Source: Candidatus Lindowbacteria bacterium RIFCSPLOWO2_12_FULL_62_27
Lineage (GTDB): Bacteria; Lindowbacteria; 2-12-FULL-62-27
Assembly: GCA_001784175.1 (NCBI GenBank)
Contig: MFPR01000034.1
Coordinates: 1 to 17,866, forward strand
DNA length: 17,866 nucleotides
Reading direction: 5' to 3'
The notes under the pieces were generated by a model. It saw only the letters and a program-made list of their open reading frames with translations. It ran no database searches and was not told where the DNA came from. Shown in pieces: positions 2 through 17,866 of the stretch. Position 1 is the stretch's first letter. Each line of letters opens with the position of its first letter. The translations under genes were made by a program, and so were the position numbers.

Positions 2-184
2 ACAAATTTCTGGAGGTACTCCATCTCCGGCAATACGTGGGAGACGAAGGCGGCCACGCCCGCCGGCGTGTCGTACGGGGGCGCGCTGGTCTATCCCGGC
101 ACGGGCGACACCCTCTATGCCCTCGGCGGCAACGGCGGCAACTTCTGGGCGTATACGCTTCCCGGTCCTTACCCCGGCCCGAAC
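2..184 (+). repeat. Kelch-like unit at the truncated N-terminus
   Basis: The translated sequence contains NTWETKAATPAG followed by GGALVYPGTGDTLYALGGN. This matches the unit layout of the downstream gene at 17453 (GGAMVYPGSGDTLYA, then TWDTKAATP). The W, GG and YPG-x-GDTLYA positions repeat roughly every 48 residues, as expected for a kelch-type beta-propeller blade. The unit ends in a PGPYPGP linker just before the first WYVND module. The missing upstream part probably holds a signal peptide and further blades. Confidence 0.75.
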
Positions 185-3100: not shown

Positions 3101-6100
3101 ATATCCGACACGTCGCTTTGGACAGAGATCGCGCAGGTGGGATCGACCGCGGACGGCTGGCAGGACACGAGCCCCTTTGTGGGCAAAGTCTACTATTACC
3201 GCGTGACCGCCTTCGACGGCGCCTCTCCATATATAAATGAGAGCTTCTACAGCGACTCCATCCCGGGCGACAGCGCGCCCTACACGTCGCAGACCGATTG
3301 GTACGTCAATGACGGTTCGACCGCCGGCGACTCGTACACGTACGCGACGGGTTCGGACATGAGCGGCAATGGCTCGAAACAGACGCCATTTGCGAGCATC
3401 CCGAAGGCGATGTCGGTCGCCACGGCGGGGGACACGATCTGGATCGACGCGGGCCTGTACGATTCGTTTGTCACTGTGAACGGCACGGAGACCGTCGGTG
3501 TGAACATCGACAAGGACTCGATCACGCTCATCGGCGCGGACTCAAACGCGACGGTGATCGACCCGCCGGGGGCGGCGGGGACGGCCGGCCTCTACGGAAT
3601 CTACGCCGACACGCAAGTCGGCCTCACCATCAAAAACCTCGGCGTGACCGGGGCGTACCAAGGGATTCATTTCTATAATGTGGATCAATCGACCGTGGCC
3701 GGCGACAGCGTGTGCTCGAACGGGAACTATGGAATTTATCTTCGTATCAACTCCGACAATAACACCCTGAACGGAAACTCAGCCGCTTCGAATTCGAGTT
3801 TTGGCATTTATCTCTTGTCATGTTCGAACAACACGGTGACGAACAACACGGCCAGTTCGAATTCGAACTACGGCATCTATTTGAACGCCGCTTCGAACAA
3901 CATGCTAACGGGCAACACCGCCAGTTCGAATTCGCCCAACGGCATCTATCTGTATTTCGCTTCGAACAACACGCTGAGCGGCAACACGGCCAGTTCGAAC
4001 GCCTACACCGGCATCTATGTGGACGGAAGTTCCAACAACACCCTGACGAACAACACGGCCGCATCGAACGGGACCTACGGCGTCTGGCTGTACGGGGCTT
4101 CGACCGACAACCTCTTCGCCCAAAATACGCTGGATTCCAACGGCGCGTATCAAATCTACATCGACGGAAGCGGCGGGGCGGGCGCGGCCGACACGTTCCT
4201 GAAGAACAACATCCGCCCGTCGCCCGACAACCCCGACAGCGGCGTTTACAACAACACGGGCAACACGTTCGATTTCACGCGCAACTGGTGGGGGACAACC
4301 GATTCGGTCGCAATCGGCCGCATGATGACCGACACCGGCGCTGTCAACCGCATCGTGTACTCGCCGTGGCGGCTCGGCATCGTCGACACAACCGCTGGCG
4401 CGGACACGGTGGCGCCGAACGATCCGGACACGGTTGCGGCGAGCGCGGCGGCGGGCGCGGGGACGGTTCTGGTGACGTGGAGCGCGGTGACGGCGAATGA
4501 GGACGGCGATGCGGGTGCGGCTGGGGTGGCGCAGTATCGCGTGTATCGCGCGGGCGTCGCCGACACGTCATCGTGGACACAGGTCGGCACGCCCACAGGC
4601 ACGGGGTTCACGGATTCGGGGATGACGATCGGCGCGACGTATTACTACCGCGTGACCGCCCGGGACGGCGCGGCGTTTCCGAACGAGTCGTACTACTCCG
4701 ACTCCGTCGTCAGCGCCACGCCCAGCGGGTGGACCAACGCCGCTGAACCCATGGGCGCCAACGCTGGGGTGTATATTATTAGTTCCATCCAGTGGGGCGA
4801 TTACGACAACGACGGCGACCTAGACCTTGCCGTGTCGGGACAGGATGGCGGCACAAACAATCGACTCATCATCTATCGGAACGACGGCGGCGGAAGTTTC
4901 ACGAACGTGGCCGAGCCGATGGGCGCCAACGCGGGGGTGCGGCAGGGTTCCATCCAGTGGGGCGATTACGACAACGACGGCCGTCTAGACCTTGCCGTGT
5001 CGGGAAGTGACGGCACAAACTATCGACTCATCATCTATCGGAACGACGGCGGCGGAAGTTTCACGAACGTGGCCGAGCCGATGGGCGCCAACGCGGGGGT
5101 GCGGCAGGGTTCCATCCAGTGGGGCGATTACGACAACGACGGCCGTCTAGACCTTGCCGTGTCGGGAGTTGACGGCGGCGCAAACAAGCGCCTCATCATC
5201 TATCGGAACGACGGCGGCGGAAGTTTCACGAACGTGGCCGAGCCGATGGGCGCCAACGCCGGGGTGTATTACAGTTCCATCCAGTGGGGCGATTACGACA
5301 ACGACGGCCGTCTAGACCTTGCCGTGTCGGGACAGGATGGCGGCGCAAACTATCGATTCATCATCTATCGGAACGGCGGCGGCGGAAGTTTCACGAACGT
5401 GTCGGAGCCGATGGGCGCCAACGCGGGGGTGCGGCAGGGTTCCATTCAGTGGGGTGATTACGACAACGACGCCGACCTCGACCTTGCCGTGTCGGGACTT
5501 GACGGCGGCGCAAACAGGCGACTCATCATTTATCGGAACGACGGCGGCGGAAGTTTCACGAACGTGGCCGAGCCGATGGGCGCCAACGCCGGGGTCCAGG
5601 ACGGTTCCATTCAGTGGGGCGATTACGACAACGACGGCCGTCTAGACCTTGCCGTGTCGGGAGCAATTGATGGCGGTACAAACAAGCGACTCATCATATA
5701 CCGGAACGACGGCGGCGGAAGTTTCACGAACGCGGCCGAGCCGATGGGCGCCAACGCGGGGGTGTACGCGGGTTCCATCCAGTGGAGCGATTACGACAAC
5801 GACGGCGACTTGGACCTTGCCGTGTCGGGAAATGACGGCACAAACAAGCGACTCATCATCTATCGAAGCGATGCCATCGCCCCGCCCAACGTCCGGCCTA
5901 ACACGCCGGCGATAAACGCGCCCAAAGGCGCATCGGTCGCGCAGGGCGACACCGTGACGTTCCGCTGGACAAAAGTGACAGGCGACACGACGCCCGATAC
6001 GGGCATGACGTACAACCTGCGCGTGGGGACGGCGAGCGACAAGGCCGACATCTTCGCCGCCGACACGAACAGCGCCGACTCGGTCGGCAACGCGATTTTG

Positions 6101-9100
6101 GGCAACGTCCAGAACGACACGTCGGCGGAGTTGGTGCGGTCGTTGACGGTCGGCCAGACATACTACTGGTCGGTGCAGGCGGTCGATCAGGGGATGATGC
6201 GGTCGGCGTGGGCCACGGAGGAGACGTTCACAATCACTCTTGTGCCCAACACAAGCGGCGTGTGGTACGTGAACGACACGTCGATTGTCGGAGACTCGTG
6301 GACAACCGCCATCGGCTACGACACGGCGGCGGGCAACGGCACGGCGTCGAATCCCTACCGCACGATCACCTATGCGCTCTCGCAGGCCCTGTCCGGCGAC
6401 ACGATCTACATCGACGCCGGGCTCTACGCCGAGACCGTCGTCATCGACACGGACAACATCGCGCTGATCGGCAAGGATTCGACCGCGACGGTGATCGATC
6501 CGCCGGGATCGGACACGGGGATTTACGCGTCCGGAAAGTCGTATCTGCTGATCCGGTCAATCGGCGTCACAGGCGCCTATGATGGAATCGTGTTTAACAA
6601 CGTCGATTATTCGCGGCTCGATGCCGACAGCGCAGGCGGCAACTCCAACTACGGAGTTGTCCTGCGCAACGGATCTGACACAAACACGATTGTAAACGGT
6701 ATCTTCAATTCCAACGCGAGCCGGGGGGTCGTTCTCTGGGCGAGTTACAACGACACCGTGCAGACGTGTGTCGCCGCGTCAAACAGCGGCGTCGGCATCG
6801 GGGTCTTCTCGAGCGGCGGCGGCCATACGTTCACGGGCAACACGACGAATTCCAACACCACCGCGGGCATTCAGATCGGAGCGGGTATCGGCGGAAATCT
6901 TGTCAAGAACAACACGATAACGACCAGTCCCAACATGGGTATCTACATATTGAACGCGCCGAACAATACGATCATCGGAAACATCGTGAAAGGCGCGCAG
7001 CCCGGCATTGAGGTCAGCGCCTCGCGCAACACCATCCGGAACAATTTCATCTCGCAGAATTCGAACGGCGCCGGCGTGTACATCAACGGCATCGCCGACA
7101 CCAACATCGTGGAGCAAAACGACATCGCCGGAAACGAAACCGGCGTCATGGTCATTTTGCAGGCCCGGAACAATGTGATTCAGAAGAACAACATCACGGG
7201 CAACACATGGGAACTGATCAACCGCGGAGGACTGGCCCAGACGACCGGGCGCAACTGGTTCGGCTCGGCGGACTCGGCGACGATTGCGGCGAAGATATCC
7301 GATACCGCGAGCGCGTGGCAGCCGTGGCGTTTGTCCCGGGTCGACACGAGCGCAGGCGCGGATACGACCGCGCCGGACGCGCCGGACACGGTGGCGGTGA
7401 CGCCGTCCGACACGTCGCTCATCGTCACATGGCAGGGGGTGTCGGCGCTGGAGGAGCCAAACGGCGGCGCGGTCGGCCTCTCGGGATACCGCATCTATCG
7501 AAGTCCCGTCATATCCGACACATCGCTTTGGACACAGATCGCGCAGGTGGGGTCGACTGCGGACGGCTGGCAGGACACGAGCCCCTTTGTGGGCAAAGTC
7601 TACTATTACCGCGTGACCGCCTTCGACGCCGCCTCTCCATATATAAATGAGAGCTTCTACAGCGACTCCATCCCGGGCGACAGCGCGCCCTACACGTCGC
7701 AGACCGACTGGTACGTCAATGACGGCTCGACCGCCGGCGATTCGTACACGTACGCGACGGGTTCGGACATCAGCGGCAACGGCTCGAAACAGACGCCGTT
7801 TGCGAGCATCCCGAAGGCGATGACCGCCGCGACGGCGGGGGATACGATATGGATCGACGCGGGGTTGTACGATTCCTACGTCGTGATCTCCGCGACCGAA
7901 ACCGCCGGCGTGAACATCGATAAGGATTCGATCACGCTCATCGGCAAGGATTCGGCGTCGACAATCATCGACCCGCCGGGGGCGAATTCGACGAGCGGGT
8001 TGTACGGCATCTACGCGGACACACAAGTCGGACTTCTGATTAAAAACCTCGGCCTGACGGGGGCGTACGACGGGATTCATTTCGTCAACGTCGATCAGGT
8101 CACGCTCTCCGGCGACAGTTTCAGTTACAATGGCAGGCACGGCGTCATTCTCCTCAACGGCGCTGACACGAACAGCGTCACCGGCAATGCCATCGACTCG
8201 AACGGCAGTGACGGTCTTGAGCTGTCAGCCGGCGCAGGATGCACAATCAGCGGAAACCAGGTTAATTTCAACGGCGCGGCGGGAATTCTTCTGTCCGCCA
8301 ACGCTTCGAACAACACTGTCAGCAATAACGCCGCGCGCCAGAACGCCACGCACGGCATCCACCTCAATCCCGCGGATTCCAACACCATCAGCGGCAACAC
8401 GCTGGAATCGAACCCCACCGGCATCTACCTGCAGACCAGCCACAACAACATGATCTCGAACAATATCGCCGACTCGAACACCAACGGCATTTATCTCCAT
8501 CAAGGCTCCAACCTCAACACCGTCAGCGGCAACTCGGCCAACGCGAACGCCGCCGTCGCCGGCATCATGGTGGACGGCGGCACGAACGACACCATCATCA
8601 ACAATACGGCCAATTCGAACTCCCAGGACGGCATCTTCATCAACGCCAGCACGGCCATCACCATCACCGGCAACACCGTCCAGTCGAACCTCATCAACGG
8701 CATCGACGCGGCCGGAGGGAACACGGGTCTTTTGATCGCCGACAACATTGCCCGGTCGAACACCCAACACGGGATTTATCTTTCGGCCAGCGCCGACCTG
8801 ACGGCCCGCAACAACTTCGTGCGGTTCAACGCGCAGGCCGGCATCCTGCTGGAGTTCGCCGAATCGATCGTGATTTCCCAGAACGACGTCTCCGGCAACG
8901 ACACCGGCATCTGGATCACGGGCGACGCGTCGAACAACTTGATCCTGAAAAATAATATTTCGGGCAACACAGTCAGCAACCTCTACAATCAGAGCGGTGT
9001 CGCCCAGACCCTCGCCCGCAACTGGTGGGGCACGTCGGATGAAGTGACGATTGCGGAGAAGATCGCGGATCCGTCGGGGAGTGTGTGGCGGCCGTACAGG

Positions 9101-12100
9101 TTGGAACTTGTAGACACAGCGGCCGGCGCCGACACGGTCGCCCCTGAATCACCGTCAAGCGTAACGCTGGACACGAGCACGCCGGGCCAGATCACGCTCA
9201 CGTGGGTCAATCCGACGATCAACGAGGATTCGGACCTCGGGACGGTGGGATTCGCCGGCCTCAACATCTTCCGGTTGGTCAACCAGCCCGATTCGTCCAA
9301 CTGGTCCGACGGTATCTACGTCGTCCGGCAGACGACGGCGTTGGAGACGACGTGGATAGACACGGACGTGACGGGCGGGAACACCTATTATTACCGGCTC
9401 ACATCGAAGGACACGGCGCCGTTTGTGAACGAGTCGTTCGCCATGGATACATACTGGGCGACGGCGGCCGTCGCATACAGCGGGCCATCGTGGTATGTAA
9501 ACGATACGTCGACATCCGGCGACTCGTACACGAGCGCGATCGGGGATGACACGACGGGCGCCGGGTCGGCGGGCGCGCCGTATGCGACCATCACGAAAGC
9601 CCTTCTGATGGCCAAGTCCGGCGACACGATTTATGTCGACCCCGGCGCGTACACCGCGCCGGTCGTGATCGACACCGACAACCTCACGCTCGTCGGCGCG
9701 GACAATTCGCTTGCGGTCATCGACGTGGGCGCGAGCGGTGACGGCATTTCCGCCACGGGACGCACGGGGCTTTCGATCCAGAACATCGGCGTCGTCAACG
9801 CCTTGAACGGCGTCCTGTTCAACCAGGTCACGAACTCGACCATATCCACCGCCTACATCTTCGGATGCTCGACGAACGGCATCCGCCTTACAAACGGGTC
9901 GGACACCAACACCCTCATCGGCAATACCGCGTTCTCGTGCCCGAACGGGATCGATCTGGAGGCGAGCGCCTTCAACACGCTGACGTACAACAGCGTCTCC
10001 ACGAACTCGGCCATCAACATTCATCTCCTCGGCGCTTCGAACAACACCCTGAGCAACAACTACGCCGACGGCGGTTCGGGCGACGGCATCTATCTGGACA
10101 GCGGATCGAACAACAACACGCTGGAGACCAACAGCGCCGGCGGCAATACCGGCAGCGGGATTGTGATCGCCGGCAGTTCTTACAACAACATCTACGGCAA
10201 CATCGCCGACACGAACGGCGCGCAGGGCGTTTATCTTCAGGCGAATTCGACCGGCAACACTATCAATTCCAACTCGGTCGCCGGCAACGCCACAGGCATC
10301 TACGCGGCGCCGAATGCGGATTCAAACATCATCGCCGCCAACGCGGCCCTTTCGAACACGTCCTTCGGCATTTACCTGAGCGGCTGCACCGGCAACACGG
10401 TAAGCGGCAATACGGCCGATTACAACACCTCCTATGGGATATGGCTGTCCGCGTGCGCGAACACTGCGTTGAACGGCAACGAGGCCGCCTCCAATTCGGA
10501 CTACGGCATTCTCCTTGGAGGGGGATCGATGAACAACGCGGTGTCCGGAAACGTTTCCATGCTGAACGCCACCGTCGGCATCTATCTTGCGGGAAGTTCG
10601 AACAACACGATCGTGGATAATGCCATCCGCGCCAACACCACCAACGGCGTCGAGTTCAGCGCGAGTTCCGACAACAACATCCTGATGAACAACGGAATCA
10701 CAGCCAACGGGATGGACGGCGTCGAAATCGGAAACAGCTCGAACAACATCATGGTTCAAAATCTGATCGCGTCGAACACTCAGTACCAGATATTCTGGTA
10801 CGGGACATCTTCGGCCAACTTGATTTCGAAGAACAACATCTCCTACGCGCCCGGCAATCCGCCCCTCAGCGCCTATATCGCCCCGACCGCCGCGCCGGCA
10901 GTGATCGACCTGACGCGCAACTGGTGGGGCAGTACGGACACGGCGGAGATTCTGGCGATGACGGTGTACCAGGGAACCAACGGAGACACGCTCGTGTTCA
11001 CCCCGTTTCGCATCGGAGTCGTGGACACGACCGCGGGCGCGGACACGGTCGCGCCCGAATCGCCGGAGACGGTGGCGGCGGACGCGCCGGTGAGCGCGGG
11101 ATACGTGCGGATCACGTGGAGCGCGGTGACGGCGAACGAGGACGGCGACGCGGGCGCGGCCGATGTGAGTTCCTACCGCATCTACCGGTCGCTCACGGGC
11201 GACACGAGCGATTGGGTCGAAGCAATCGGCACGGCCGCCGGGGACAACTTCATCGACACGTCCGTCGCGCTTGGGACGACTTACTATTACCGCGTTACCG
11301 CCGTCGACACCGCGACGACGCCGAACGAGTCGTTTTATTCCGATTCCATCGTCAGCGCGACGCCGCCGATGTACGACGGCCCGGCCTGGTTCGTGAATGA
11401 CACGTCGGCGGCGGGCGACTCGTATACGAGCGCGTCCGGGAGCGACGGAACGGGCGACGGGTCGGCGGGCGCGCCGTTTCGCACCATCGCGAAAGCGCTT
11501 GATATGGCCGCATCCGGCGAGACCATCTACATCGACGCCGGTTACTACACGGAGACGGCGGTCATCGACACGGACGATATCACGATATCCGGCGTTGACT
11601 CCGGCGCGACCGTCATCAGTGCCGGCTCTACCGGCGATCCCGTCATTCACGCGCAGAATTGCGCGAATGTCAGGATTGAAAAACTCGGCGTTCGGAACGG
11701 CTATTCCGGGTTGCGGCTCGACAATGTGAATGGGGCGTATATCGAGGGCGTGGAGGCCAAGGACAATCAGTGGTTCGGCGTCGCCATAAGCGGCGGAACG
11801 AACCACACGCTGGTCTACATCTCCGCGACCGGCACGGAAACCGCCGGCGTCTACATCGACAATACGTCGGGCGACTCCATACAGAATTGTTACAGCAGTT
11901 CGAACGGCACAAACGGCTTTGAACTTTGGAATTCCGTCGGAAGCATGTGGAGCGGCAACACCGCGTCGAACAACTCGGGCGCGGGATTTCAAGTCCGGTC
12001 GTGCGCGAGCAATAGCTTCTCAGGCAACACGGCCGATTCGAATGCGTCGAACGGCATGGAACTGGCATCGAGCACGGCCAATTTGGTGAAAGGCAATCGC

Positions 12101-15100
12101 ATCGCCGGCAATCAGCAGGACGGCGTCTTGTTGGATTCTTCCTCGCTCAACGTATTTTCGCAGAACGATATCTCCTCAAACGCCGGGTATCAGGTGTACG
12201 TCACCGACGGCTCGGAATCGAATTGGTTTGCCAGAAACAACATCTTGCCTGGAGGCACATTCCCCGACAGCGCCGTGCTGAACACCAGCGGCAACGCGCA
12301 GGATTTTCAACGGAACTGGTGGGGCACGACGGATGAGTTCATCATCGAGTTGAGGCTAATCGACACATCCGGCTCGAATCTCGTCCAATTCTCGCCGTAC
12401 GGCCTCGGCGTTGTGGATACATCGCTCGCCGGCGACTCGCTCGCGCCCTCGTCGCCGACCGGCGCGTCGGCGAACGGGGGGACGCCCGGACAGGTAACGG
12501 TGACGTGGTCGGATCCGGTTGTCGATGAGTACGGCGGCGGTTTGTCGGACTTGGCCGGGATCAAGATATACCGTTTGGTGGATTCGTTCGACACGCCGAA
12601 CTGGGCGAATTTGCCGGTGAAATATGTCGCGGCGGCGGTTGGTTCGTGGGTCGACACGGACGTGATTGCGGGACACACCTATCGTTACCGTCTCACGGCC
12701 TATGACGGCGCGGCGTTCATCAACGAGTCGTTCTTCAGCGACAGCGTGGGCGCGAGCGCGCTGAACCACGCGCCGTACATCGCGCCGGCCATAGCGAACC
12801 AGATGGACTCCGAGGACACGTCGCCGTGGAGTATCGCCCTGTCGTCATACGCCGGCGACACGGACGGCGACCCGCTGACGTGGAGCGTGACGGGCGGCGG
12901 GACGGTCGTGTCGGCGAGCGTGACCGGCGGGGAAACGCTGGACATCACGCCCACCGCGAACGCGTATGGCGTCGATAACCTGACGGTTTATTTGACGGAC
13001 GGACAGGACACGGCATCGCAGGTCGTGTCCGTCACTCTGACATCGGTGAACGACGCGCCCGTTGCCGACGCCGGGTCGGACACTGCGATCGCGGCCGGCG
13101 CCACCGCCTATCTGACGGGTTCGGGATCGAGCGATGTCGAGGGGGCCGTCACTTATCTCTGGACACAGCTTGCCGGGCCGGCGATGACGCTGTCTCCGGA
13201 TTCAGTGACGGCCGACGTATCGTTTGTTTCGGACACAGCCTATCTCGGCGATTATATTTTTCAACTGACGGTGGGCGACGGGATCGACACATCGGCCGAC
13301 ACGGTCGTGATCTCGGCCGGAAACGTGGCGCCGGTTGCCGATGCCGGGTCGGAGACGGTGTCTGTGACGCACCCGGACACGGTGAATCTCAACGGCGGCG
13401 CCTCGTATGATTCGAACGGCGACACGCTTTACTATCTCTGGACGATCGTCTCGGGTCCGACGTCGCCGGCCATCAGCGGCGCGGATTCGGTGGCCGCAAG
13501 TTTTGTCGCCGATTCTGTCGGCGTTTACGTCGTCACGCTGGAGGTATTCGACGGCACGGACACCACGACGGACACGCTGGATGTGACGGCGTTGAACACC
13601 GCGCCGACGGCCAACGCCGGACCGGACACGTCGGTTACGGCCGGCGCCACCGCGCAGATTTTTGGGAGCGCGTCGAGCGACCCGAACGGCGACATGATCT
13701 CGTATTCATGGACGCAGACCGGCGGGCCGTCGGTGGAGTTGTCGGATTCGTTCGCCGCCAATCCGACATTTGTGCCGGTGATTGCCGCCACATATTATTT
13801 TGATCTGGCCGCGAGCGACGGATTTGACAGTGCGACGGATCAGGTGATGGTGACGGTGACTGCGGGCGCGCCGGCGGTGATGGAGAAGTCTGTCGACACG
13901 CACATTCTGGCGGACACGTATGAACAGGCTGTGCTGGCCGTCCATGTGCTGGACGCGAACGGCAACTGCGTCCCGAGTGAGGCGGTAACATTTGAAGTCA
14001 CGTATCCGTCGACCGGCAACGACGCCGGGATTTCCCCTGCAGCGGCCTACACAGACGGCTCCGGCATCGCGCAGACGACGGTGTATTTGTCGTCGGCGAC
14101 GGCGAGCAGTTTCTACCGCGTCCGGGCGAGCGTGTCGGGATTGACCCAGGACTTCTACGTTTACAACAACAAACTTCATTTCGCGGCCCAAGTCTCGGCC
14201 GGCAACAATCGGGGATGGAAGATGTGGTCATACAACGGCGTGCCGGCAGCGACGACGGTGGCAGACGCCATCACGCCTTATCTGTCCGACGCCGACATCT
14301 ACGAGTGGCAGGCGGGGACGAATGAAAACACGAGCTTGGCCGGCGCGAGCGGCACGCATTATTACGCGCCGTCGGTGATCGAACGCGGGCGTGCGTACTG
14401 GATCAAGAGCAACGCGGGCGGGACGCTGCGCATCACGCCGGGGTTGACCAGCCCGTCAGAGACGGTGGCTGTGAGCCTGATCGCAGGCTGGAACCAAGTC
14501 GGGACCGGCCAGTTCTTCTTCACCGACTGGGATAAGTCCGTGCGGTTTTTCCGGCCGACCGATTCGGAACACCTTGATACGCTGACGCCCCAGCAGGCGG
14601 AAGATTCCGGACTCATCCAGAATGCGGCCTACTGGTGGTCGGAGGACGACAGCACGTACTACTGGGGCCCGGACACGGCGATGTATCCGCAGGTCCAGAT
14701 GAAGCCGATGGCGGGATTCTGGCTGCTCGTGAATTCCGCCGTCGAGATGCTGATCATGCCCATCCCGGCCGAGCCGCAGGACTCGGTGGAGATATTGAAT
14801 CAGGCGCCTGCATATCGGGCAGACAAGGGGACGAGCTACGCTCGGAGACAAGGGGACAAGGGGCGAACCCTGTCGGCGTATTACAAACAAAATCACAAAA
14901 CGGGCGGCGAAAACGACTGGGCGATCCAGCTCATGGCGAGTGGCGGAGGTTCGAGGGACGTCCAGAATTATGTGGGCGTGAAAGCGACCGCGGGGGCAGC
15001 CAAGGCGGCGAGCCGTTTCGAGCCGCCGGCGACGGCGGGCGGGTACGTCGCACTAGCAGTCCGACGGTCGGACGAACGGACGAACGGACGAACGGAATGG

Positions 15101-15676
15101 ATGGCGGCGCTGTTCTCGGAACCCGTGACCGCGACCGACGCGCGAGACGCGGGCCGCGCGTGGGACGTGATGGTGGCGTCGGACATCGGCCAGGCCGTCA
15201 CGCTCGCGTGGGACAACGTCGAGAATCTGCCAAGCGGCTATGAGGCGTATTTGATCGGCGCCCCCAACGGCCCCGTGAATTTACGCACGGTTTCTTCTGT
15301 ATCGTTCCCCTTGTCTCAACGTCCCCTTGTCTCCTTGTCGCTCGTGTTGGGCGCGCCCGAATTCCTCGCGCCGTACTTGGCGGCGCCGCTCTCGAAGGAG
15401 AACACGTTCGTGTACCCGAACCCGGGGCCGGACGGGACAACGGGGAACATGACGTTCGCGTACAACCTGGGCGCGGCGGGCGACGTCAAGATCAAGATAT
15501 TCGACGCGAGCGGGCGGCTCGTGCGCGAGCTGACCGGCACTGGCGCGGCGGGCGCGAACACCGTCGTGTGGGACACGACCAACCGTCACGGCCAGAAGGT
15601 CGGCTCGGGCGTGTACATCTACAAGATCGAAAGCGGCGGCGACAAGCTCGTCGATAAATTGGCAATCGTTCGATGA
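2..15676 (+). CDS. Giant multidomain beta-helix/FN3/FG-GAP surface protein (5'-truncated by window edge)
   Basis: The frame is open from the first base and ends at TGA 15674-15676. The GTG at position 68 is only an internal codon, because homologous kelch-like sequence reads through upstream of it; the true start lies outside the window. Numbered from that GTG, the order is: end of a kelch-like unit (1-35); seven modules starting at W40, W568, W1078, W2066, W2548, W3142 and W3774, each a DUF1565-like opening, NosD-type right-handed beta-helix coils, an NWW cap and an FN3 domain; seven FG-GAP/VCBS repeats (about 1555-1940) and one FN3-like domain (about 1941-2063) between modules 3 and 4; a cadherin-like domain (about 4233-4327); three PKD-like domains (about 4328-4600); a Big-like domain (about 4600-4700); an unrecognised region (about 4700-5108); and a FlgD/T9SS-like Ig tail (about 5112-5202). 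The protein is Asn/Ser/Thr/Asp-rich with few Cys. Such proteins are usually exported structural or adhesive proteins. No catalytic site was recognised, so a polysaccharide lyase role is possible but unsupported. Confidence 0.95.
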   Translation, partial: TNFWRYSISGNTWETKAATPAGVSYGGALVYPGTGDTLYALGGNGGNFWAYTLPGPYPGPNWYVNDTSTSGDSYTSAVGSDTNEGSASAPFRTIIAAMAAASEGDTIYIDAGIYDSYTWVSATETAGVNIDKDSITLIGKDSGSTIIDPPGASSISTMYGIYADTQVGLTIKNLGVTGAYDGIHFYNVDSSTIESDSASSNGNYGIYLRVNSDTNTIKNNTASSNSRGIWLDASSNNTVTNNTAGSNSNEGIVLTSTSNNNTVTNNTASSNSSAGIWHGSSSNNTVTNNTANSNTNDGIYLQSSTNNTVTNNTASSNSRYGIWLDVTSNNNTVTNNTASSNSTFGIYLAASSNNNAVTGNTANSNLQHGIVLDASSNNRVIQNEVRLNTRYQVYIDNASSSDTVQKNNIEPSGTNPDSGVYNGSTIAANKFTVTRNWWNSTDTARIKQMIYQKSNGDSVIWQPFRLGQVDTTAFADTTAPDAPDTVAVTPSDTSLIVSWSAVTALEEANGGAVGLSGYRVYRSKVKDTSSWVKVAQTATGVTRWQDTDVVIGSPYYYRVTAFDTATFENESFFSDSQPSDSAMFTTTVNWYVNDTSTTGDSFTTAAGSDTASGKGTVAAPFKTIPRAMQFATAGDTIWVDAGLYDSYVKVSASETAGVYITVDSLTLIGKDSGATVIDPPGDSAVANLYGIYADTQTGLTIKNLGVTGARVGIYFMNVDMSTVSGDSASSCADHGILLRNGSDTNTVTSNTASSNSDRGIFLFSSSNNNTVTSNTAISNSTSGITLESNSNNNTVSNNTAISNKQNGIHMNSISNNTVSNNTASSNLSYGIYLSASANNSTVSNNTAISNGSSGIYLYSNSNNTVSNNTADSNSSYGITLDLSSNNTVVQNDVRNNTTYQIYIVGTSSSDTVQKNNIVPSATNPDSGVFNGSTVATNKFTFTRNWWNSTDTARIKQMIYQASNGDSVIWQPFRLGQVDTTAGADTTAPDAPDTVAVAPSDTILIVSWSSVTGLEEANGGAVGLAGYRVYRSPVISDTSLWTEIAQVGSTADGWQDTSPFVGKVYYYRVTAFDGASPYINESFYSDSIPGDSAPYTSQTDWYVNDGSTAGDSYTYATGSDMSGNGSKQTPFASIPKAMSVATAGDTIWIDAGLYDSFVTVNGTETVGVNIDKDSITLIGADSNATVIDPPGAAGTAGLYGIYADTQVGLTIKNLGVTGAYQGIHFYNVDQSTVAGDSVCSNGNYGIYLRINSDNNTLNGNSAASNSSFGIYLLSCSNNTVTNNTASSNSNYGIYLNAASNNMLTGNTASSNSPNGIYLYFASNNTLSGNTASSNAYTGIYVDGSSNNTLTNNTAASNGTYGVWLYGASTDNLFAQNTLDSNGAYQIYIDGSGGAGAADTFLKNNIRPSPDNPDSGVYNNTGNTFDFTRNWWGTTDSVAIGRMMTDTGAVNRIVYSPWRLGIVDTTAGADTVAPNDPDTVAASAAAGAGTVLVTWSAVTANEDGDAGAAGVAQYRVYRAGVADTSSWTQVGTPTGTGFTDSGMTIGATYYYRVTARDGAAFPNESYYSDSVVSATPSGWTNAAEPMGANAGVYIISSIQWGDYDNDGDLDLAVSGQDGGTNNRLIIYRNDGGGSFTNVAEPMGANAGVRQGSIQWGDYDNDGRLDLAVSGSDGTNYRLIIYRNDGGGSFTNVAEPMGANAGVRQGSIQWGDYDNDGRLDLAVSGVDGGANKRLIIYRNDGGGSFTNVAEPMGANAGVYYSSIQWGDYDNDGRLDLAVSGQDGGANYRFIIYRNGGGGSFTNVSEPMGANAGVRQGSIQWGDYDNDADLDLAVSGLDGGANRRLIIYRNDGGGSFTNVAEPMGANAGVQDGSIQWGDYDNDGRLDLAVSGAIDGGTNKRLIIYRNDGGGSFTNAAEPMGANAGVYAGSIQWSDYDNDGDLDLAVSGNDGTNKRLIIYRSDAIAPPNVRPNTPAINAPKGASVAQGDTVTFRWTKVTGDTTPDTGMTYNLRVGTASDKADIFAADTNSADSVGNAILGNVQNDTSAELVRSLTVGQTYYWSVQAVDQGMMRSAWATEETFTITLVPNTSGVWYVNDTSIVGDSWTTAIGYDTAAGNGTASNPYRTITYALSQALSGDTIYIDAGLYAETVVIDTDNIALIGKDSTATVIDPPGSDTGIYASGKSYLLIRSIGVTGAYDGIVFNNVDYSRLDADSAGGNSNYGVVLRNGSDTNTIVNGIFNSNASRGVVLWASYNDTVQTCVAASNSGVGIGVFSSGGGHTFTGNTTNSNTTAGIQIGAGIGGNLVKNNTITTSPNMGIYILNAPNNTIIGNIVKGAQPGIEVSASRNTIRNNFISQNSNGAGVYINGIADTNIVEQNDIAGNETGVMVILQARNNVIQKNNITGNTWELINRGGLAQTTGRNWFGSADSATIAAKISDTASAWQPWRLSRVDTSAGADTTAPDAPDTVAVTPSDTSLIVTWQGVSALEEPNGGAVGLSGYRIYRSPVISDTSLWTQIAQVGSTADGWQDTSPFVGKVYYYRVTAFDAASPYINESFYSDSIPGDSAPYTSQTDWYVNDGSTAGDSYTYATGSDISGNGSKQTPFASIPKAMTAATAGDTIWIDAGLYDSYVVISATETAGVNIDKDSITLIGKDSASTIIDPPGANSTSGLYGIYADTQVGLLIKNLGLTGAYDGIHFVNVDQVTLSGDSFSYNGRHGVILLNGADTNSVTGNAIDSNGSDGLELSAGAGCTISGNQVNFNGAAGILLSANASNNTVSNNAARQNATHGIHLNPADSNTISGNTLESNPTGIYLQTSHNNMISNNIADSNTNGIYLHQGSNLNTVSGNSANANAAVAGIMVDGGTNDTIINNTANSNSQDGIFINASTAITITGNTVQSNLINGIDAAGGNTGLLIADNIARSNTQHGIYLSASADLTARNNFVRFNAQAGILLEFAESIVISQNDVSGNDTGIWITGDASNNLILKNNISGNTVSNLYNQSGVAQTLARNWWGTSDEVTIAEKIADPSGSVWRPYRLELVDTAAGADTVAPESPSSVTLDTSTPGQITLTWVNPTINEDSDLGTVGFAGLNIFRLVNQPDSSNWSDGIYVVRQTTALETTWIDTDVTGGNTYYYRLTSKDTAPFVNESFAMDTYWATAAVAYSGPSWYVNDTSTSGDSYTSAIGDDTTGAGSAGAPYATITKALLMAKSGDTIYVDPGAYTAPVVIDTDNLTLVGADNSLAVIDVGASGDGISATGRTGLSIQNIGVVNALNGVLFNQVTNSTISTAYIFGCSTNGIRLTNGSDTNTLIGNTAFSCPNGIDLEASAFNTLTYNSVSTNSAINIHLLGASNNTLSNNYADGGSGDGIYLDSGSNNNTLETNSAGGNTGSGIVIAGSSYNNIYGNIADTNGAQGVYLQANSTGNTINSNSVAGNATGIYAAPNADSNIIAANAALSNTSFGIYLSGCTGNTVSGNTADYNTSYGIWLSACANTALNGNEAASNSDYGILLGGGSMNNAVSGNVSMLNATVGIYLAGSSNNTIVDNAIRANTTNGVEFSASSDNNILMNNGITANGMDGVEIGNSSNNIMVQNLIASNTQYQIFWYGTSSANLISKNNISYAPGNPPLSAYIAPTAAPAVIDLTRNWWGSTDTAEILAMTVYQGTNGDTLVFTPFRIGVVDTTAGADTVAPESPETVAADAPVSAGYVRITWSAVTANEDGDAGAADVSSYRIYRSLTGDTSDWVEAIGTAAGDNFIDTSVALGTTYYYRVTAVDTATTPNESFYSDSIVSATPPMYDGPAWFVNDTSAAGDSYTSASGSDGTGDGSAGAPFRTIAKALDMAASGETIYIDAGYYTETAVIDTDDITISGVDSGATVISAGSTGDPVIHAQNCANVRIEKLGVRNGYSGLRLDNVNGAYIEGVEAKDNQWFGVAISGGTNHTLVYISATGTETAGVYIDNTSGDSIQNCYSSSNGTNGFELWNSVGSMWSGNTASNNSGAGFQVRSCASNSFSGNTADSNASNGMELASSTANLVKGNRIAGNQQDGVLLDSSSLNVFSQNDISSNAGYQVYVTDGSESNWFARNNILPGGTFPDSAVLNTSGNAQDFQRNWWGTTDEFIIELRLIDTSGSNLVQFSPYGLGVVDTSLAGDSLAPSSPTGASANGGTPGQVTVTWSDPVVDEYGGGLSDLAGIKIYRLVDSFDTPNWANLPVKYVAAAVGSWVDTDVIAGHTYRYRLTAYDGAAFINESFFSDSVGASALNHAPYIAPAIANQMDSEDTSPWSIALSSYAGDTDGDPLTWSVTGGGTVVSASVTGGETLDITPTANAYGVDNLTVYLTDGQDTASQVVSVTLTSVNDAPVADAGSDTAIAAGATAYLTGSGSSDVEGAVTYLWTQLAGPAMTLSPDSVTADVSFVSDTAYLGDYIFQLTVGDGIDTSADTVVISAGNVAPVADAGSETVSVTHPDTVNLNGGASYDSNGDTLYYLWTIVSGPTSPAISGADSVAASFVADSVGVYVVTLEVFDGTDTTTDTLDVTALNTAPTANAGPDTSVTAGATAQIFGSASSDPNGDMISYSWTQTGGPSVELSDSFAANPTFVPVIAATYYFDLAASDGFDSATDQVMVTVTAGAPAVMEKSVDTHILADTYEQAVLAVHVLDANGNCVPSEAVTFEVTYPSTGNDAGISPAAAYTDGSGIAQTTVYLSSATASSFYRVRASVSGLTQDFYVYNNKLHFAAQVSAGNNRGWKMWSYNGVPAATTVADAITPYLSDADIYEWQAGTNENTSLAGASGTHYYAPSVIERGRAYWIKSNAGGTLRITPGLTSPSETVAVSLIAGWNQVGTGQFFFTDWDKSVRFFRPTDSEHLDTLTPQQAEDSGLIQNAAYWWSEDDSTYYWGPDTAMYPQVQMKPMAGFWLLVNSAVEMLIMPIPAEPQDSVEILNQAPAYRADKGTSYARRQGDKGRTLSAYYKQNHKTGGENDWAIQLMASGGGSRDVQNYVGVKATAGAAKAASRFEPPATAGGYVALAVRRSDERTNGRTEWMAALFSEPVTATDARDAGRAWDVMVASDIGQAVTLAWDNVENLPSGYEAYLIGAPNGPVNLRTVSSVSFPLSQRPLVSLSLVLGAPEFLAPYLAAPLSKENTFVYPNPGPDGTTGNMTFAYNLGAAGDVKIKIFDASGRLVRELTGTGAAGANTVVWDTTNRHGQKVGSGVYIYKIESGGDKLVDKLAIVR
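185..1768 (+). repeat. Beta-helix module 1 with FN3 domain
   Basis: The module opens with WYVNDTSTSGDSYTS and an APFRTI...GDTIYIDAGIYDS segment typical of the DUF1565 opening of beta-helix proteins. Coils of 23-24 residues with the core NNTVTNNTASSNS then GIxL run from about nt 640 to 1140. A QKNNI cap and NWWNSTD lead to an FN3 domain carrying GYRVYRS and YYYRVTAFD. The coils are very alike at the DNA level. Confidence 0.85.
1284..1480 (+). repeat. Intragenic repeat, copy A (module 1 cap/FN3)
   Basis: This 197-bp stretch over the NWWNSTD cap and start of the FN3 domain aligns without gaps to 2808-3004, with 8 mismatches by hand count (about 96% identity). Confidence 0.88.
1769..3298 (+). 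repeat. Beta-helix module 2 with FN3 domain
   Basis: The layout matches module 1: WYVNDTSTTGDSF opening, coils from about nt 2228 to 2665 with cores NNTVTSNTA and NNTVSNNTA, NWWNSTD cap and FN3. The stretch 2808-3004 is almost identical to 1284-1480 in module 1. The end of the FN3 domain, running on into module 3, is almost identical to the module 4/5 junction. Confidence 0.85.
2808..3004 (+). repeat. Intragenic repeat, copy B (module 2 cap/FN3)
   Basis: Partner of 1284-1480. The matching part lies between helix ladders that differ in coil number. Homology here could therefore mediate exchange or loss of a whole ladder. Confidence 0.88.
3091..3412 (+). repeat. Long intragenic repeat, copy A (module 2/3 junction)
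   Basis: This 322-bp stretch aligns without gaps to 7501-7822, with 11 mismatches by hand count (about 96.6% identity). It spans the second half of one FN3 domain and the first part of the following beta-helix module. Both flanks diverge quickly, which suggests recent gene conversion or duplication rather than uniform conservation. Confidence 0.9.
3299..4729 (+). repeat. Beta-helix module 3 with FN3 domain
   Basis: The module opens with WYVNDGSTAGDSYTYATGSD and has a short ladder of coils from about nt 3770 to 4110 (NNTVTNNTASSNS, NNMLTGNTASSNS, NNTLSGNTASSNA). The cap is NWWGTTDS. The FN3 domain differs in its first strand (AASAAAGAGTVLVTW) from modules 1 and 2 and resembles that of module 6. 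The FG-GAP cassette follows directly. Confidence 0.85.
4730..5878 (+). repeat. Seven tandem FG-GAP/VCBS repeats
   Basis: Seven units of 54-56 codons start at about nt 4742, 4910, 5072, 5237, 5402, 5567 and 5735. Each reads AEPMGANAGV, SIQWGDYDNDGxLDLAVSG, then RLIIYRNDGGGSFTN. The DYDNDGxLD segment is the DxDxDGxxD calcium loop of FG-GAP/VCBS beta-propeller repeats, and seven units would close one seven-bladed propeller. Unit 5 has DYDNDADLD, losing the loop glycine. Unit 4 has RNGGGG instead of RNDGGG. Near-identity at the DNA level indicates recent amplification or homogenisation. Confidence 0.9.
5879..6262 (+). repeat. FN3-like domain attached to the FG-GAP block
   Basis: The translated segment has RPNTPAINAPKGASV, TVTFRWTKVTGD, MTYNLRVGT and TYYWSVQAVD. 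This is an FN3-like fold distinct from the YRVYRS type that closes the beta-helix modules. The NTP...P, LRVGT and YYWSVQAVD pattern commonly follows FG-GAP repeats in other bacterial proteins. The repeats and this domain therefore look like one cassette placed between modules 3 and 4. Confidence 0.7.
6263..7708 (+). repeat. Beta-helix module 4 with FN3 domain
   Basis: The module opens with WYVNDTSIVGDSWTT. Its coils are less regular than those in modules 1-3 (NNTIIGNIV, RNTIRNNFIS, NNVIQKNNIT) and their DNA is clearly diverged. The cap is NWFGSAD rather than NWWG/NWWN. The FN3 domain from nt 7501 onward is nearly the same sequence as the module 2 FN3. Confidence 0.85.
7501..7822 (+). repeat. 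Long intragenic repeat, copy B (module 4/5 junction)
   Basis: Second copy of the 322-bp repeat at 3091-3412. Most of the 11 differences are silent third-position changes, as expected if protein sequence was retained after copying. Confidence 0.9.
7709..9490 (+). repeat. Beta-helix module 5 with FN3 domain
   Basis: The opening copies that of module 3 (WYVNDGSTAGDSYTYATGSD). A long ladder of coils runs from about nt 8150 to 8980 with cores such as NNTVSNNAA, SNTISGNTL and INNTANSNS. The cap is NWWGTSDE. The FN3 domain belongs to another subtype, with GFAGLNIFRLV and YYYRLTSKD, shared only with the last FN3 at about 12,436-12,765. Confidence 0.85.
9491..11386 (+). repeat. Beta-helix module 6 with FN3 domain
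   Basis: This is the longest module. It opens with WYVNDTSTSGDSYTSAIGDD, and coils run from about nt 9850 to 10790 with cores NNTLSNNYA, GNTVSGNTA and NNTIVDNAI. The cap is NWWGSTDT. The FN3 has VRITWSAVTANEDGDAG, close to that of module 3. The DNA of successive coils is well diverged, so this ladder is older than those of modules 1-3. Confidence 0.85.
11387..12765 (+). repeat. Beta-helix module 7 with FN3 domain
   Basis: The opening is WFVNDTSAAGDSYTSASGSD, with F in place of the Y found in the other six. The ladder is the shortest and least regular (NSFSGNTADSNAS, ANLVKGNRIAGNQ). The cap is NWWGTTDE. The FN3 domain has GIKIYRLV and YRYRLTAYD, the same subtype as in module 5. It is the last helix before the Ig-like stalk. 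Confidence 0.85.
12766..14165 (+). repeat. Ig-like stalk: cadherin-like, three PKD-like and one Big-like domain
   Basis: A cadherin-like domain with DTDGDPLTWSV and YLTDGQDTASQ (about 12,766-13,045) precedes three PKD/REJ-like domains. Each of these opens with A-P-x-A-D/N-A-G-S/P-x-T and contains YxWTxxxGP (about 13,050-13,865). A Big_1-like domain with VLAVHVLDANGNCVPSEAVTFEV-type residues follows (about 13,870-14,165). Such chains usually space a functional head from the cell surface. Domain edges are approximate. Confidence 0.75.
14819..14863 (+). repeat. AGACAAGGGG short repeats, forward copy
   Basis: AGACAAGGGG occurs at 14821-14830 and 14846-14855, followed directly by ACAAGGGG (14856-14863). 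The stretch is read in frame and encodes the odd Arg/Lys/Gly-rich segment DKGTSYARRQGDKG inside a domain that is otherwise acidic and Lys-poor. It looks like an inserted dispersed repeat rather than part of the domain. Confidence 0.75.
15069..15096 (+). repeat. 8-bp microsatellite CGGACGAA x3.5 within the giant gene
   Basis: Three full copies of CGGACGAA (15069-15092) plus CGGA are read in frame as part of RRSDERTNGRTEWM. The unit length is not a multiple of three, so gain or loss of one copy would shift the frame and remove the C-terminal FlgD-like domain. Confidence 0.85.
15307..15340 (+). repeat. CCCCTTGTCT short repeats, inverted copy
   Basis: CCCCTTGTCT occurs at 15307-15316 and 15323-15332, followed by CCTTGTCG. 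This is the exact reverse complement of the AGACAAGGGG units near 14,820-14,863, about 480 bp upstream. It is read in frame as SFPLSQRPLVSLSLV. Confidence 0.8.
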
Positions 15677-15683
15677 GAACTTG

Positions 15684-15783
15684 ATGGAGACGGCGCGCAA
15701 GATCCGCCTGGGTCACGCCCATGTCTTTGCGCAACCCGCGAAGCCGCCTGCCGAGTTGTTTTCAATTGCCGCGATACAGCCAT
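15684..15783 (-). pseudogene. XRE-type helix-turn-helix regulator, broken fragment
   Basis: Read on the minus strand from ATG 15783, the sequence starts MAVSRQLK. One base into the next frame, at a run of four A (about 15,756-15,762), it continues QLGRRLRGLRKDMGVTQADL and then ARRL. This is the classic first half of an XRE/Cro-type HTH domain (LGxRLRxLRxxxGxTQxxLA). One extra A in the run would explain the frameshift; in the HTH frame a TGA lies immediately upstream. Homology stops about 8 bp outside the giant gene's stop codon, so the second half of the domain is missing. AAAGG lies 10 bp before ATG 15783. The gene is probably a relic of a regulator or antitoxin truncated at a rearrangement junction. 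Confidence 0.6.
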
Positions 15784-15805
15784 ACCGCCGTTGCCTTTCA
15801 TGATG

Positions 15806-15831
15806 CGTTCGACCCTATCTTTTTTCGAACG
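15806..15831. promoter_or_regulatory. Inverted repeat upstream of the XRE relic
   Basis: CGTTCGA (15806-15812) and TCGAACG (15825-15831) form a perfect 7-bp inverted repeat around a 12-bp T-rich centre. It lies 22 bp upstream of the XRE fragment's ATG on the minus strand, where an autoregulatory operator would be expected. It could equally be a weak hairpin after the giant gene. No experimental or family evidence decides this. Confidence 0.25.
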
Positions 15832-15868
15832 ATTCTGACAGCCAAGGGCCGTATCCGGCGGGAAACAT

Positions 15869-17032
15869 TCAATTCAGATCATCCAGATTCTGCCAGCCCA
15901 GGGCATGGCCGTGTTTTCTGGACTCGGTCCGGTTTCCCCCGTGGACGAGGAAATGGGCCGAGGCGGGCGTTTTTGAAATGCGCGCGAAGAAATCCAGTCC
16001 TTTGAAGAAATCCCCGGTGACGGTTGAGCCGGATTTGATTTCAACGGCGTGCAAGTCATGCCCGTCTTCCAGAACCATGTCCACTTCATGGCCGGTATTG
16101 TCCCGCCAGAAATACGCGTTGGGGAGCCGGCCGGCGTTGAATCGGCGTTTCAGGTATTCCGATATCACAAAAGACTCGAATATGCCTCCGCGCAGATAAT
16201 GCCCGGCCAACTGGCGGCTGGAACGAATGTCCAGCAGCGCAGAGAGGAGGCCCGTGTCGTAAAAGTAGAGTTTTGGCTGTTTGACGACGCGCTTGTTGAA
16301 GTTGCGGTGGTGCGGCTGCAGCAGAAAAACGATGAAACTGGCCTCCAGCACCGACATCCAGGAACGGACGGTCTTGTAATTGACGCCGATATCACTGCCG
16401 ACGCTCGACAGATTCAAAAGCTGTCCGACGCGGCCGGCGCAACATTTGAGAAACCGCTGAAATGCGCTCTGATCCCCGATATTCTTGATGCTTCTCACAT
16501 CCCGTTCGACGTACGTCTGAATGTAGGAGGGAAAATAATCCTCCGGCTTGATGTTCCGGCCGTGCAGGGCGGGGTATCCTCCCCTGAACAACGCCTCGTC
16601 CAGGGAGTTGGAGTCAAGTTTGGCGCGTTTGAGTTCGGACAGGGTCAACGGAAGGAGATGACAAACGGCCACGCGGCCGGCCAGGGACTGGCTGATTTTC
16701 TCAAGGAGCAGAAAGTTCTGGGATCCCGTGAGAACGTATCTTCCCATTTTTCCCGAATCGTCGACTATGCTCTGCAGATAGGAGAAGAGGGCGGGAACTC
16801 TCTCTGCCTCGTCGATGATCAGGCCCGTTTGGGAATGGGCATGGAGGAACCTCAGCGGGTCCTCCTCCGCGGCCATCCGTTCGTCCGGCCTTTCCAGGTT
16901 GGCGTAGGCATGCCGGGGGAACAGCTTTTTGACGAGCGTCGTCTTCCCCGACTGCCTCGGCCCGGTCAGAGAAACAACCGGAAACTTTTTCGACAGGGCA
17001 AGGACGTGAGCCCCCGCCGTCCGTTGGATCAT
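15869..17032 (-). CDS. AAA_14/DUF4143 family ATP-binding protein
   Basis: This 387-residue protein is full length for the family. An N-terminal AAA_14 P-loop domain carries Walker A GPRQSGKTTL (24-33), Walker B LIIDEAERVP (71-80, D74/E75), a TGSQNF sensor-like motif (102-107) and LAGRV (118-122). The C-terminal DUF4143 part has ERDVR (176-180), FYDTGLLSALL (257-267), GGIFESFVISEYL (282-294) and a PD-(D/E)xK-like core, EVD (316-318) with EIK (331-333). Start ATG 17032 is supported by GGGAGG six bases upstream. Stop is TGA 15869-15871. The family is widespread and patchily distributed. Its cellular role is not established; the nuclease-like core suggests DNA contact, which is inference. The gene is transcribed against both giant genes and upstream of the XRE fragment in the same direction. 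The full motif set suggests it is functional. Confidence 0.93.
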   Translation of the reverse strand: MIQRTAGAHVLALSKKFPVVSLTGPRQSGKTTLVKKLFPRHAYANLERPDERMAAEEDPLRFLHAHSQTGLIIDEAERVPALFSYLQSIVDDSGKMGRYVLTGSQNFLLLEKISQSLAGRVAVCHLLPLTLSELKRAKLDSNSLDEALFRGGYPALHGRNIKPEDYFPSYIQTYVERDVRSIKNIGDQSAFQRFLKCCAGRVGQLLNLSSVGSDIGVNYKTVRSWMSVLEASFIVFLLQPHHRNFNKRVVKQPKLYFYDTGLLSALLDIRSSRQLAGHYLRGGIFESFVISEYLKRRFNAGRLPNAYFWRDNTGHEVDMVLEDGHDLHAVEIKSGSTVTGDFFKGLDFFARISKTPASAHFLVHGGNRTESRKHGHALGWQNLDDLN

Positions 17033-17038
17033 GCCCGA

Positions 17039-17044
17039 CCTCCC
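17039..17044 (-). promoter_or_regulatory. Ribosome binding site of the AAA/DUF4143 gene
   Basis: GGGAGG on the minus strand lies six bases before ATG 17032. It is a strong Shine-Dalgarno match and fixes the start codon. Confidence 0.8.
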
Positions 17045-17055
17045 TTCGCGCCAAT

Positions 17056-17084
17056 ATCGTATCCTTACAAAACAGGAATTTCAA
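17056..17084 (-). promoter_or_regulatory. Candidate sigma70-type promoter of the AAA/DUF4143 gene
   Basis: On the minus strand, TTGAAA (17084-17079) and TACGAT (17061-17056) are separated by exactly 17 bp and lie shortly upstream of the ribosome binding site. The promoter is in an AT-rich patch (about 17,050-17,100) that contrasts with the GC-rich coding sequence around it. The position and spacing are convincing; activity is inferred. Confidence 0.55.
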
Positions 17085-17120
17085 TACTAATTTGTAAAAT
17101 CCAGAACCCCTGAGCTCTGC

Positions 17121-17177
17121 TACAAACCCGAAGGCAGCGGCAACAAGCTCGTGGATAAACTGGCGGTTGTCAGATAG
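17121..17177 (+). pseudogene. Orphan 3' tail of a giant-gene paralogue
   Basis: The frame reads YKPEGSGNKLVDKLAVVR then TAG. The last 18 residues of the giant protein are YKIESGGDKLVDKLAIVR, giving 13 of 18 identical, with both ending at a stop codon directly after R. An in-frame TAA lies a short way upstream and there is no coding continuation, so only the end of a FlgD-like sorting domain is left. Clear DNA differences from the intact copy rule out a fresh target-site duplication. It looks like the remnant of another family member lost when this region was rearranged. Confidence 0.75.
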
Positions 17178-17302
17178 GGCATGACTCTATGAGCGCCGCA
17201 CGCGGCCCCGGCGGGCGGGAAAACCGATGTGAATCTGAAAACGATCTCTCAATAAGTTGTAAAATCAGTCCCGGGCGTCAACGGATTCCGACAAAGCCCC
17301 CG

Positions 17303-17324
17303 AATTCGCCTTAAAAGGCGAATT
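17303..17324. terminator. Strong palindrome, possible terminator or operator
   Basis: AATTCGCC and GGCGAATT flank TTAAAA, giving an 8-bp perfect stem that can extend by two A-T pairs. Only a weak T-rich stretch (TTTATCT) follows on the plus strand. It may terminate transcription coming from the remnant paralogue, or be a binding site in the leader of the 17453 gene. It is not a textbook intrinsic terminator. Confidence 0.35.
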
Positions 17325-17353
17325 TATCTCTGAAAATACATCTTCTTCTTCGA

Positions 17354-17381
17354 TTGACTTTCTCCGGCCTCAGGCCACAAT
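17354..17381 (+). promoter_or_regulatory. Candidate promoter of the downstream giant gene
   Basis: TTGACT (17354-17359) and CACAAT (17376-17381) are separated by 16 bp, about 70 bp before the start codon. The -35 box matches 5 of 6 consensus bases and the -10 box 4 of 6. It is plausible but unproven. Confidence 0.35.
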
Positions 17382-17437
17382 TGTCCGGTGTGGGGAGAGC
17401 GCTCGCGCGGCGCCCATCCCCTGACGGCGGGGTTGGT

Positions 17438-17443
17438 GGAGGG
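17438..17443 (+). promoter_or_regulatory. Ribosome binding site of the downstream giant gene
   Basis: GGAGGG lies nine bases before ATG 17453. The second possible start, ATG 17459, would be 15 bases away, so 17453 is preferred. Confidence 0.75.
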
Positions 17444-17452
17444 AATTCAAAG

Positions 17453-17866
17453 ATGTCGATGGTGGTCAAGAGGATCTTGCGATTGGCCGGGGTTGCCGCG
17501 TTGTTGCATTACTGCGTTCTCACTTTCCCGGCTCCGGCTTGGGCCGCGGGGGACACGTGGATCACACGGTCGAGTATCCCCAGCGGCGCGTATAACGGCG
17601 CAGGTCTTGTGTACCCCGGTTCGGGCGACACCCTATACACGTTCGCCGGTAACAGCACGAATCTATTCTACGGGTATTCCATCACCGGGAATTCGTGGAC
17701 CGCCATGCCAAACGCTCCGGCCGGCGTCGACGAGGGCGGCGCGATGGTGTATCCCGGATCGGGCGACACGCTCTACGCCATGATCAACAATGCGACGAAC
17801 CGCATGTTCACGTATTCCATATCAAGTGGAACGTGGGACACGAAGGCGGCCACGCCGTTCGCGGGG
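17453..17866 (+). CDS. Secreted kelch-like repeat protein, N-terminal part (runs off right edge)
   Basis: 138 codons are visible with no stop. The first 31 residues form a typical signal peptide: K6, R7 and R10, then a hydrophobic core (about 11-25), then PAPAWA with likely cleavage after A31. Cys21 is not in a lipobox, so this is not a lipoprotein. Kelch-like units of about 48 residues follow, with G-A-G-L-V-YPGSGDTLYTFAGN (first), GGAMVYPGSGDTLYA (second) and the start of a third, TWDTKAATPFAG. The same unit opens the window inside the first giant gene. The protein is therefore a paralogue of it, at least at the N-terminus, and shows what the missing N-terminus of that gene probably looks like. 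It is expected to be exported by the Sec pathway; the rest of its architecture is unknown. Confidence 0.88.
   Translation, partial: MSMVVKRILRLAGVAALLHYCVLTFPAPAWAAGDTWITRSSIPSGAYNGAGLVYPGSGDTLYTFAGNSTNLFYGYSITGNSWTAMPNAPAGVDEGGAMVYPGSGDTLYAMINNATNRMFTYSISSGTWDTKAATPFAG

Follow-up and report, generated by a model that had tools for sequence, protein, structure and literature searches.

Giant surface genes occur in many environmental bacteria. Little is known of how they diversify, in part because assemblies from short reads break within these genes. In Apilactobacillus kunkeei, the Giant1-5 cluster consists of consecutive genes for extracellular proteins of 3,000–8,000 residues; identity among the members of a cluster is <20%, and the study saw no sign of recent gene conversion among the giants (PMC12863079). 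Huge proteins of Omnitrophota and other environmental bacteria have been reviewed (PMC11573180), and cargo proteins of the type IX secretion system carrying a type A C-terminal domain are known from Bacteroidota.

The DNA analyzed here (the window, 17,866 bp) is the entire contig C34 of a 4.39-Mb, 44-contig draft genome from a Lindowbacteria-like lineage. It resembles the A. kunkeei cluster in having probably neighboring giants with a signal peptide, a long repeated interior, and a conserved C-terminus, but A. kunkeei is a lactic acid bacterium whose giants have other domains, and the near-identical head tract is a feature of the giants described here. As with the huge proteins of Omnitrophota, there are many ORFs >5,000 residues in one uncultured genome, while the lineage is a different one and the genes here have a probable tandem arrangement and shared heads. 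With type IX cargo, the giants share the signal peptide and the TIGR04183 domain, and PorV-family genes are present in the genome. Tandem giant surface genes are therefore already known from Apilactobacillus, and the unusual feature of this locus is the homogenized, freshly copied head.

Our preferred reading, to which we assign a probability of roughly 0.78, is that the gene starting at the right edge of the window (gene B) is the second complete giant of a tandem pair spanning contigs C7, C34, and C6, that both giants are displayed at the surface after Sec and type IX-like export, and that their tips were recently homogenized. The features of the window are as follows.

2..15676 (+): body of giant gene A; ORF that enters from the left contig edge and has 5,224 residues before its stop; begins inside kelch-like unit 5
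2..199 (+): left half of the head tract, shared with the C6 gene by sequence comparison and covering the end of unit 5, the whole of unit 6, and the beginning of helix module 1
200..499 (+): stretch still 84–95% identical to the C6 gene, from the same comparison, to codon 166
14051..15673 (+): conserved C-terminal region common to about 19 genes of the genome, from sequence comparison
15374..15673 (+): type IX type A-like sorting domain by HMM (TIGR04183, 39.7 bits, cut-off 23), with phmmer matches to PorU (6za2) and PG93 (5m11) in the PDB
15691..15834 (−): relic of an XRE-type regulator gene, 5′ end, 82.5% identical over 143 bp to the intact gene on C7
15835..17282 (no strand): inserted segment between the XRE relic and the promoter element; its two flanks jointly align to a contiguous C7 site
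15869..17032 (−): AAA ATPase with DUF4143 (PF13173, PF13635 in Pfam), inside the inserted segment
17120..17178 (+): stranded tail, a 59-bp relic coding for the C-terminal end of a giant protein; 17120-17175 and 15619-15674 share 77% identity
17303..17324 (no strand): operator-like palindrome, AATTCGCCTTAAAAGGCGAATT; in the copy preceding the giant start on C7, changes on both sides preserve the symmetry
17354..17381 (+): sigma-70-like promoter, TTGACT-N16-CACAAT, conserved in three copies of the promoter element
17438..17443 (+): ribosome-binding site GGAGGG, from the sequence
17453..17866 (+): start of giant gene B (signal peptide, kelch-like units 1 and 2, start of unit 3); ORF from the ATG at 17453, open to the contig end
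17726..17866 (+): right half of the head tract, shared with the C7 gene start (139/141 bp and 25/25 fourfold sites identical)

An earlier note on this DNA had proposed that a gene with a signal peptide and kelch-like units starts at the right edge, and the ORF, ribosome-binding site, promoter, and homologous units bear this out. The signal peptide is basic and then hydrophobic, ending in PAPAWA-A, and the units start with TWITRSS, SWTAMPN, and TWDTKAATP at a spacing of 46 residues. Within the genome, this start is closest to the C7 gene start (77% identity) and to kelch-like regions encoded on C6, C30, and C24, and homologous units were found in the C6 gene (E = 1e-31), the C24 gene (E = 2e-28), and the left edge of C34 (E = 3e-11). 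A PDB search with the right-edge fragment gave no match. The resemblance of TWDTKAATP to TWETKAATP at the left edge, which the note had taken as a link between the two genes, is real in the DNA (25/26 nt, E = 3e-4 genome-wide), but it is weaker evidence than claimed because unit 3 is being set against unit 6 and most units of the family contain the motif. We therefore rejected it as evidence of gene identity.

The kelch-like domain of the window itself is interrupted by the contig break, and the kelch HMM PF13964 scored just under threshold on this partial domain (23.5 bits vs a cut-off of 25.3). Three complete paralogues, C6:153699-181040, C24:40668-55529, and C30:66603-69002, contain six units each at 46-residue spacing. 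Units 1 and 2 and the initial 12 residues of unit 3 stand at the right edge, and the final 11 residues of unit 5 and the whole of unit 6 at the left, which fits a total of six; from the six units of the paralogues we infer that residues 139-253, about 345 bp, are hidden at each break. Six units of ~46 residues in the complete paralogues resemble the Kelch six-bladed beta-propeller, although the Pfam Kelch_6 match is just below cut-off and the domain is known here from sequence alone.

Both ends of C34 lie within one same repeat, where the assembly stopped. The last 88 bp of the contig are exactly shared with the left end of C7, where they form the end of that contig's gene start, and the first 98 bp are exactly shared with the left end of C6, where they form the start of a giant body. 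Genome searches found neither the 88-bp nor the 98-bp end sequence at other contig ends, so that gene starts stand at two contig ends (C34 right, C7 left) and giant bodies at two (C34 left, C6 left); the repeat therefore has two entries, the gene starts, and two exits, the giant bodies. There was no direct end-to-end overlap of contigs. The only possible continuations of the right-edge gene found among the contig ends of the genome are the two giant bodies, of 5,038 and 5,224 residues, and the C6 body is a paralogue of the C34 body with modules and C-terminus in common. Because both exits are giant bodies, gene B is expected to encode a protein of 5,000 residues or more, complete with helix modules and the shared C-terminal sorting domain, whichever body it joins. 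This supports the proposal that it is a second giant paralogue, and speaks against a short gene lacking the helix modules, which the note had named as the outcome that would overturn it.

Body A and start B are adjacent within one contig, and the joins of C7 to C34 and of C34 to C6 are inferred. The order would run from C7, with the start of gene A, through C34, with the body of A, the insertion carrying the ATPase, and the start of B, to C6, with the body of B. A self-join of C34, as a circle or in extra tandem copies, yields identical contig ends. One form of it we regard as extremely improbable, namely that C34 is circular and free, or misassembled, with its two edges parts of a single gene and C7 joined directly to C6: units 1–3 of the right edge and 5–6 of the left would fit together, but the C34 ends do not overlap each other, the 18 kb carry no replication gene, and this reading requires a free element whose sole cargo is one giant gene and an ATPase. 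The circular contig considered in the earlier note is thus disfavored by the absence of end overlap, although its strict exclusion is beyond sequence alone. It is also unlikely that more than one copy of the C34 unit lies between C7 and C6 as a higher-order tandem array collapsed by the assembler, since the copies must then be nearly identical across 18 kb; such an array would leave the same four contig ends, and decayed duplicated gene starts at C6:152.6-153.6 kb and C6:254.7-255.4 kb are in its favor.

In a related genome (G002), genes orthologous to those of C7 and of C6:34-44 kb are found on the same contig within 10 kb, adjoining a giant C-terminus. Exact synteny as proof of the C7-C6 link was rejected, as G002 shows proximity but another gene order. 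Another contig of this genome likewise ends inside a kelch-type giant gene start (G002:C74:2-400, minus strand).

The contig ends also preserve a record of sequence exchange. C34 and the C6 body are identical at 37/37 fourfold sites over the first 66 codons, and beyond the still similar stretch their identity falls to ~57% from position 500 on, with 33/68 fourfold sites identical downstream. At the other edge, the first 91 codons of gene B are 73% identical to the C7 gene (fourfold sites 22/35), and the last 47 codons are 98.6% identical. Taking both halves together, 62/62 fourfold-degenerate sites next to the break are identical; Fisher tests on fourfold sites gave P = 3e-4 for the right tract and P = 2e-6 for the whole 498-bp left tract. 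The sharp tract edges and identical silent sites argue for recent exchange rather than protein constraint, and the near-identity of the heads points to a recent conversion-like tract between neighboring genes. Purifying selection or a recent whole-gene duplication without exchange is a very unlikely source of this near-identity. Constraint on the propeller sequence is possible and the two genes are certainly duplicates, but neither selection on the protein nor a uniform duplication age yields silent sites that are identical within a tract and diverged on both sides of sharp edges. The suggestion in the earlier note that the array could feed recombination among giant surface proteins has direct support in the shared head tract.

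Under the preferred reading, the tips of the two neighbors would have been homogenized recently by gene conversion or unequal crossing-over, and the near-identity of these tips would account for the assembly break. The break marks a recent exchange between neighboring giants, with tract boundaries that can be mapped. The stalk modules would have been duplicated and shuffled more freely than the tips. The best partner of a C34 module head is often a C6 module at another position, and for C6 module 3 the closest module is one in the C24 gene. C34 and C6 module heads were each other's best partners 7 times vs 2.2 expected (P = 0.01), and same-gene module partners were enriched (19 vs 6.1 expected, P = 1e-4), both by permutation ignoring shared module ancestry and indicative only. 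A tentative and rather doubtful extension is that the array acts as a head-exchange system, in which the ligand-binding propeller tip is repeatedly copied from one neighboring giant to another and stalk modules are shuffled separately, so that tip and stalk evolve apart in an uncultured lineage with type IX-like export.

Two decayed partial giant gene starts (C6:152637-153574 and C6:254654-255448) lie just upstream of a full giant gene, one of them broken by a small gene, which suggests that gene starts may be recurrently duplicated in tandem.

Between the two giants, the XRE relic sits directly behind the stop codon of gene A. The C7 site has the regulator and a copy of the promoter element side by side, and the joined flanks of the window align there with few gapped bases near the junction; 15835-17282 is therefore best read as a 1.45-kb insertion. 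The stranded tail that the earlier note had placed between the genes is real, given its 77% match to the end of gene A, but it is a 59-bp relic within this insertion. We rejected it as a third gene, and the claim of at least three related genes in a row gives way to a pair of full genes and one short relic. A direct repeat of 14 bp (93%) on either side of the tail, at 17088-17101 and 17253-17266, is possibly the footprint of its insertion or deletion.

The promoter element begins at 17283 (17283-17400 in the window), with other copies at C7:454-617 and C7:5332-5435. These three copies in the genome precede gene B, the C7 gene start, and a C7 operon for a phosphonate-binding protein and a cyclase, and one copy is divergent from the XRE regulator gene. 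A common regulator for the three could be guessed at from this arrangement. In G002, a giant C-terminus directly adjoins a broken copy of the phosphonate-binding-protein gene upstream of the cyclase (G002:C141:54.2-55.1 kb).

Gene A has Pfam matches to NosD, Beta_helix, FG-GAP, PKD, Big, and FlgD_ig/Por_Secre_tail. The genome has about 19 copies of substantial length of the conserved C-terminal region, in ORFs of up to 9,114 residues, and at least 11 ORFs >2,000 residues carry it. It is also present in the two other genomes of this family, of which one is recorded as Candidatus Lindowbacteria. Scanned against the GTDB contig collection, the C-terminal region of the window by itself gave no match, and an alignment recovered the two related genomes only, one being JAHFCY (Candidatus Lindowbacteria nzgw232). 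Variable linkers of this region (14950-15270 and the same linker in paralogues) contain the peptides IQNPKSKI and SPQPSPASGRG, which resemble translated dispersed repeats, and CGGACGAA is repeated 3.5 times at 15069-15096.

These giants have both a signal peptide and a conserved C-terminus, and the C6 gene also matched TIGR04183 (26.5 bits vs a cut-off of 23). They are likely exported by a type IX-like route, as judged from these signals, with Sec acting via the signal peptide and the C-terminal sorting domain then directing passage across the outer membrane. With the C-terminus as anchor, the six-unit kelch-like propeller would form the free tip, and the helix, FG-GAP, and PKD modules the stalk. 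The genome adds a Lindowbacteria-like lineage in which a large giant-protein family carries type IX-type sorting domains. Unlike Bacteroidota cargo, the close relative of the window's genome is recorded as Lindowbacteria, and the candidate SprA/Sov, a 1,826-residue ORF on C20, is a weak, partial match (69.9 bits, E = 6e-20, below the 200-bit cut-off) for which there was no Pfam or PDB match. No C25 (PorU-type) peptidase, PF01364, was found in the window's genome, which is 94% complete, and matches to the PorU model there are confined to its C-terminal domain. The SprA score below cut-off and the missing C25 peptidase make the secretion route uncertain. Covalent attachment of the giants is not supported. 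Given their domain types and long modular stalks, their role is most likely adhesion or ligand binding.

Twelve PorV-family genes in the genome scored above cut-off. PorV-family genes directly beside sorting-domain ORFs (C6:146150, C30:59064, C18:17641, C31:39553, C44:57833, C44:42936, C28:205208, C10:6187, and C21:15801) suggest candidate cargo and shuttle pairs. Elsewhere in the genome, C40 contains an open frame of 10,454 residues, and C2:43827-110684 (minus strand) contains one of 22,286 residues that is open at the contig end and crosses N bases; if real, it is among the longest bacterial frames.
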